A stretch of 46,722 nucleotides of DNA from a virus, in IMG/VR virus record IMGVR_UViG_3300028388_003688, positions 1-46,722 of that record, one strand, 5' to 3'. A program made the translations under genes and the position numbers. Position 1 is the stretch's first letter. Each line of letters opens with the position of its first letter. The notes beneath the pieces were generated by a model. The model had not been told where the DNA came from. It made no database searches and was given only the letters and a program-made list of their open reading frames with translations. This document shows positions 25,941 through 29,544 of the stretch, one piece after another.

Positions 25941-26014
25941 TCTCCCGTAGCTCAGTTGGATAGAGCAACTGACTTCTAATCAGTAGGTCGCAGGTTCGAG
26001 TCCTGCCGGGAGTA
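25941..26014 (+). tRNA. tRNA-Arg (UCU)
   Basis: Cloverleaf of 74 nt: D stem GCTC/GAGC, anticodon stem ACTGA/TCAGT with loop CTTCTAA (anticodon TCT), T stem GCAGG/CCTGC with loop TTCGAGT, acceptor pairs 2-7 (CTCCCG/CGGGAG). Pair 1-72 is a T-T mismatch and CCA is not encoded. It reads AGA, the main Arg codon in most genes of this window, so it probably supports late translation. It sits between two small genes with its own short spacers. Confidence 0.9.
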
Positions 26015-26034
26015 CAACTCAAAAACAAAAGAGT

Positions 26035-29162: not shown

Positions 29163-29519
29163 GGGGCTGACAGGTATCGACAGGATAGAAGTATTAATTA
29201 GAAGGATGTGCCATTGTAGATGTGGGCATAAAACTATCTACACACGCTTAAAAGGCGAAACACAATTGTCTCAGGCAGATGCACTGTCTGAAGTTGAGAA
29301 TGCTCTCAAGAACAATATCTTGTCTCCTGTAAAGGAGAAGGAAACAGTTCTGGAGCCAGTTTTAGTTTAGTTTAGTGGTTTCTCTGTTCCCTAAAAACAG
29401 AGTGGTGGATTCCATTTAGCCCAGTTTTGGAGAGTGTCAAATAACTCTATCCTATCATCCTAAATAATTCGATTAGTATATTTTATCACTGGACTGGGGT
29501 TCGATTCCCCACAGCTCCA
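29163..29519 (+). ncRNA. ssrA: tmRNA (transfer-messenger RNA)
   Basis: The 5' end GGGGCTGACAGG and the 3' end pair as a 7-bp acceptor stem (GGGGCTG/CAGCTCC) with a G-U at pair 3, the AlaRS identity element. The T arm CTGGGG TTCGATT CCCC is intact; the encoded 3' end stops at A29519 and CCA is not encoded. Inside are a pseudoknot-like stem TGTAGAT/ATCTACA (29215-29242), helix-5-like hairpin CAGGCAG/CTGTCTG (29272-29290) and a late hairpin CTCTGTT/AACAGAG (29382-29402). The tag frame opens at GGC (29254) with Gly-Glu-Thr, as in Bacteroidota, but runs 38 codons to TAG at 29368 and ends VLEPVLV instead of ALAA. It rescues stalled ribosomes; no SmpB gene is seen, so host SmpB is assumed. Confidence 0.94.
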
Positions 29520-29544
29520 CTATTTTTAATTAAAATTTATTGTT

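Follow-up and report, generated by a model that had tools for sequence, protein, structure and literature searches.

Tags encoded by tmRNAs are generally treated as short degrons, for which an ALAA-like end is usual though not strictly defining. The phage DNA analyzed here (termed the window, meaning the whole stretch of 46,722 nt) raises the question of what a tmRNA would do when its tag appears to run far beyond the ordinary stop and to lack such an end. The question resolves into three: whether the RNA is a real tmRNA, whether the long frame is the one that is read, and what the tag would mean for the rescued proteins.

The phage and the genomic setting of its tmRNA

Judged from its genes, the window, a linear record of 46.7 kb, comes from a crAss-like phage that follows the standard genetic code. 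Its portal, large terminase subunit (TerL) and head proteins match PHROGs, and TerL is 30% identical to that of Cellulophaga phage phi14:2 (Crassvirales, Steigviridae). The tmRNA is placed in a variable region, where the genes lying between 25.6 and 35 kb found no match in the related contigs fetched. In the nearest TerL relatives, no tmRNA was detected by Rfam or by a scan for acceptor and T arm that recovered 41 of 43 known tmRNAs, and the gene is therefore patchy. Searches by pattern, TerL, DNA polymerase and head protein found no close relative of the window tmRNA; the polymerase search returned two 40% matches, neither of them useful, and the head-protein search for close relatives returned no match. 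Hits of the pattern TCGACAG...AAAAGGCGAAAC were rejected as tmRNA relatives, being chance matches inside genes.

The phage also carries a tRNA-Arg (TCT) at 25941-26015, which reads AGA, by far its commonest arginine codon (391 of 579). Among the terminases of the searched contigs, the large subunits of L148 and L150 harbor an insertion of about 300 residues that lies right before the Walker A motif SRGGGKS; the insertion ends in HN and is probably an intein, and the terminases of L157, L338, L339 and L341 probably contain the same insertion.

Architecture of the tmRNA

A complete one-piece tmRNA gene (ssrA) of the crAss-like phage type extends on the plus strand from 29163 to 29520 (or 29522), as identified by Rfam RF00023 with 62.3 bits and an E value of 4e-22, and ARAGORN also calls a tmRNA gene at this locus. 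The RNA combines the parts by which a tmRNA is recognized, namely a tRNA-Ala-like domain with T arm, P2, PK1, downstream pseudoknots and an internal tag frame that closes at a stop codon. The 5' acceptor strand GGGGCTG (29163-29169) pairs with the 3' strand CAGCTCC (29512-29518) at 7 of 7 positions, including G3-U, the acceptor pair that gives tRNA-Ala its identity. The region from 29494 to 29518 comprises the T arm, whose stem forms 5 of 5 pairs, and this 3' strand; the CCA is not fully encoded at the 3' end. A preliminary description of the locus had proposed a real, complete tmRNA with G-U at the third pair, and that proposal holds.

The P2 strands are able to pair (duplex of -17.7 kcal/mol). 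In the pseudoknot PK1 (29208-29242), inspection reveals helix 1, TGTAGAT (29215-29221) with ATCTACA (29236-29242), and helix 2, TGCC with GGCA. The resume context UAAAA (29249-29253) precedes GGC, and the relatives have a UAANN context before their resume codon. Sequence and folding show a P5-like hairpin, CAGGCAG/CTGTCTG, at 29272-29290, whose loop ATGCA contains no stop; in ordinary tmRNAs, the tag stop is located in the loop of P5. The stop codon of the long frame is the TAG at 29368-29370, which is directly followed by a post-tag pseudoknot and TGGTGGA (29371-29409), both homologous to those of relatives. Stem 1 of this pseudoknot is CTCTGTT (29382-29388) with AACAGAG (29396-29402), and helix 2, read by inspection, is TTTAG (29371-29375) with CTAAA (29391-29395).

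The tag frame and its end

The frame that opens with GGC GAA ACA, the opening of Bacteroidota tags, runs from 29254 to 29367 and encodes 38 codons before the TAG, GETQLSQADALSEVENALKNNILSPVKEKETVLEPVLV, a tag roughly four times as long as usual, while the remaining two frames close as ...GRCTV* and ...ISCLL*. All three readings agree with those proposed before. On translation, the usual ALAA-like proteolysis signal is absent from the tag, which ends in VLV, and near the stop the other frames contain no AA end either. Given this, and because the PVLV end (CCA GTT TTA GTT) is several base changes away from AVAA, one sequencing error cannot account for the missing signal; the earlier claim that such an end is lacking survives.

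The tag that ARAGORN assigns to the window, VGIKLSTHA*, is located inside PK1 and therefore cannot be right. Extension of the tag by stop codon reassignment was likewise rejected, because TAA, TGA and TAG all serve as stops in this phage; TAG closes 10 of its 57 complete open reading frames, and long frames run uninterrupted under the standard code. By itself, a 38-codon open frame is weak evidence, as it was seen in 6% of shuffles that keep base composition only and not dinucleotides, and it becomes more than chance because the RNA is homologous to a phage family of long-tag tmRNAs with the stop in the same place. The tag region is also more structured than shuffles (z -2.5), which could reflect a constraint at the RNA level instead of the peptide level.

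Related long-tag tmRNAs in crAss-like phages

Comparison with the tmRNAs of related phages, which the preliminary description had suggested, yielded 54 related tmRNAs in crAss-like phages with 36 distinct tags of 24-49 codons, the window counted. The tags are distinct at the DNA level, a few being identical as peptides, and the set is neither complete nor unbiased, because its members were found by a PK1 pattern or via terminase. The resume codon was set as the G after UAANN throughout. A DNA pattern derived from the PK1 of the relatives found by Rfam matched 48 viral contigs and, in cellular genomes, a single one, that of a Clostridia member, and Rfam detected a tmRNA in 12 of the 46 records reached by terminase alignment. 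Rfam searches of whole records located tmRNAs in the Flavobacterium phage FpV4 and in phi14:2, the latter just below the cut-off; the Cellulophaga phages phi38:1, phi40:1 and Calle also carry a related tmRNA, and three gut crAss-like genomes tested have none.

These genes are missed or misread by standard tools: ARAGORN failed on the FpV4 tmRNA and misread the tags of phi14:2 and the window. The tmRNA of Calle is annotated as such, and PMC8776804 mentions one tmRNA gene; none is annotated in the phi14:2, FpV4 and phi38:1 records. Phage tmRNAs are known from 402 of about 18,000 phage genomes (PMC9004378). The open-access literature yielded no account of tags of this length and conservation in phages of the crAss-like group, which does not prove that none exists. 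An SmpB gene was not found in the crAss-like phages with long-tag tmRNAs, so that the host SmpB presumably has to serve.

The window RNA 3' of the TAG, TTTCTCTGTT...AACAGAGTGGTGGATT, aligns with that of the family member L262 at a score of 24.5, compared with a maximum of 19 among 300 shuffles preserving base composition only. In compact members, a tag of at least 24 codons stops 28-41 nt before the stem linked to TGGTGG, and the window shows the same arrangement, with a distance of 32 nt from stop to TGGTGG as against 34, 34 and 33 nt in L262, L272 and L265. The stem adjoining TGGTGG is kept despite sequence differences, in 19 of 34 against a mean of 2.2 for shuffles of the same composition-only kind, and its compensatory variants include CTCTGTT/AACAGAG, CTCAGTT/AACTGAG, CTTATTT/AAATAAG and CTTGCAT/ATGCAAG. 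The frame from 29254 is thus recognized as a long tag, for its TAG is located where the stops of compact members are, and reading it as 38 codons is very probably correct, given the homology of the RNA after the TAG and the same stop-to-pseudoknot distance. Resumption in another frame would give an ordinary short tag, for instance RNTIVSGRCTV*, starting at CGA and stopping in the 3' strand of P5; its 11 codons are a normal length and, by inspection, the A at -4 also fits, but the homologous stop belongs to the GGC frame, GGC GAA ACA is a start of Bacteroidota type, and a CTV end is no better as a degron, which makes this reading highly improbable.

Against the family core Q[VI]xANMxxVxxIL, the window peptide scores no better than shuffles of itself: the HMM gave 0.7 bits, and 785 of 2000 composition-only shuffles of the tag scored as high. 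Homology of the window peptide to that core is accordingly unsupported by the HMM, though MAFFT aligns SQADA-LSEVENAL with AQVQANMxxVxxLL. The family PK1 pattern AGAGATAAC...AACTAAGGTGAA is absent from the window PK1, and the PK1 of L234 differs too; this pattern is partly a search criterion, by which most members were found, and not a defining trait.

Length, core and ends of the family tags

A typical family tag is GNTKENAQVQANMNVVFNLLGDDTQEEASYEVELAVAA, and the general layout consists of a short GN, DN or DK start, the core, which is common to most tags, a linker that varies, and a terminus reading VAA, MAA, EAA, LAA, IAA or MVA. AlphaFold2 predicts residues 3-22 of the typical tag as one helix, with a mean pLDDT of 85 for residues 11-20 and modest values overall; no known domain or structure was found for the core. 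Among five pairs of nearly identical tags, third codon positions account for 13 of 15 changes (P 3e-5), and several pairs conserve the tag much better than the remaining RNA, as in L228/L229, where 1 of 93 positions differs in the tag versus 79 of 280 elsewhere. Because of this synonymous-site bias and the greater conservation of the tag, the tags of the relatives are, as their sequences indicate, under selection as peptides. Tag starts and ends appear to have been swapped between lineages; L235, for example, joins the start of L230 to the end of L256.

An AA or VA end, such as the AVAA of an FpV4 tag, occurs in 34 of the 36 distinct tags, and the exceptions form two lineages, the window (VLV) and phi38:1/Calle (VGV). 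The long tag is a family trait, mostly with a degradation-type ending retained, and the frequency of AA and VA ends suggests selection for them. The preliminary description had joined a long tag with the lack of an ALAA end; both features stand, but length is not coupled to loss of degradation, because extended tags are what the family usually has, and nearly all of them keep AA or VA.

Further long tags were observed in the searched contigs. The tag of L258 has 49 codons, lacks the ANM core and ends in AIAA, and two other viral contigs, L047 and L057, encode tags of about 27 codons ending in ALAA and AMAA. Outside the crAss-like set, L005 (8734-9161) and L389 (G098 1948-2294) are two related phage tmRNAs, neither of which ARAGORN calls as a tmRNA; L389 has a normal tag of 9 codons, GNTANFAYA, while the frame of L005 runs for about 40 codons and ends in YAYA, which suggests that tag lengthening may have occurred more than once.

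Comparison with known tmRNA systems

The window RNA resembles bacterial tmRNA (ssrA, RF00023) in its G3-U acceptor, T arm, P2, PK1, resume site, P5-like hairpin and later pseudoknots, and differs from those with an ALAA-type tag in that its tag passes P5 and ends in VLV. The tags of cellular (bacterial) tmRNAs are reported to comprise 8-35 residues (PMC8012679). With the long-tag tmRNAs of phi14:2, FpV4, phi38:1 and Calle, it shares the long tag and, as in compact members, a stop just before the stem and TGGTGGA, whereas it lacks their core and AA/VA end and has another PK1 sequence.

Mycobacteriophages also carry tmRNAs (PMC4131195). The Bxz1-type tmRNA of mycobacteriophage ET08 is, like that of the window, a one-piece phage RNA with a long tag and an LV end; its tag of 25 codons, ATDTDATVTDAEIEAFFAEEAAALV, ends in ALV, is unrelated in sequence and belongs to a phage of an actinobacterial host. 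ET08 is a precedent for a long phage tag with an ALV end, and such ends therefore occur elsewhere. Mycobacteriophage DS6A has another phage-borne tmRNA derivative, a form reduced to the tRNA-like domain (TLD) that has no tag (PMC4131195), whereas the window RNA is complete. In three viral contigs, L006 (5430-5511), L007 (4015-4096) and L008 (5037-5118), we observed tmRNA-like RNAs of 82 nt that have no tag and consist solely of the tRNA-like domain. The DS6A form, which may titrate SmpB (PMC4131195), resembles these RNAs.

The possibility that VLV is a working degron deserves mention here, since hydrophobic VLV, VGV and ALV ends on long phage tags might be recognized by a host or phage protease. 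The tag of phi38:1, which as appended after alanine reads A-GNNTNAVNAQIEANM..., and that of Calle combine a typical core with the VGV end, and the ALV end of ET08 points the same way; the retention of AA or VA in the rest of the family, suggesting selection for that very end, speaks against it, and we consider it somewhat unlikely.

Proposed function

The RNA is a tmRNA of the family carried by crAss-like phages of Bacteroidota, and with its 38-residue tag and VLV end it would probably keep rescue and weaken or shift degradation of the ClpXP type. The host would charge it with alanine, and together with host SmpB it would enter ribosomes that stall during infection, translation presumably resuming at GGC 29254. 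The ribosome would then read on across the hairpin that holds the stop of ordinary tags, append the 38 residues and terminate at TAG 29368, directly before the conserved pseudoknot. In most relatives, the predicted helix is followed by an AVAA-, MAA- or EAA-type end and the whole is most simply a degradation tag; conservation of AA/VA at the end points to a degradation signal that a helical module has made longer. In the window lineage, this end has turned into VLV, so that rescue would be retained and ClpXP-type degradation of the tagged proteins is probably weakened or moved to another protease; the loss of degradation in this lineage is plausible.

Alternatively, the lineage may have lost its true C-terminal degron and its tag may be drifting, in which case the RNA would be decaying toward non-function or toward a rescue-only device. 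That the window is the only lineage with PVLV, that its tag fails to match the family core and that the gene is missing from its nearest relatives would fit such decay, but acceptor, T arm, P2, PK1 and post-tag pseudoknot show no damage and the 38-codon frame still ends at the homologous stop, so that decay appears unlikely. As a bolder and rather doubtful extension of the preferred reading, in which rescue is kept, the long tags of crAss-like tmRNAs might put a selected helical module before the degron to reroute rescued proteins, either by docking to an adaptor or along a route specific to the phage, and the window tag might now be a non-degradative label.

Significance

The long-tag idea can be tested directly, because three of the phages, phi38:1, phi14:2 and FpV4, are in culture. 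That a phage family is widespread whose tags have 24-49 residues, contain a helical core selected as peptide and have now and then lost the AA end suggests that trans-translation is altered by phages and not just copied.
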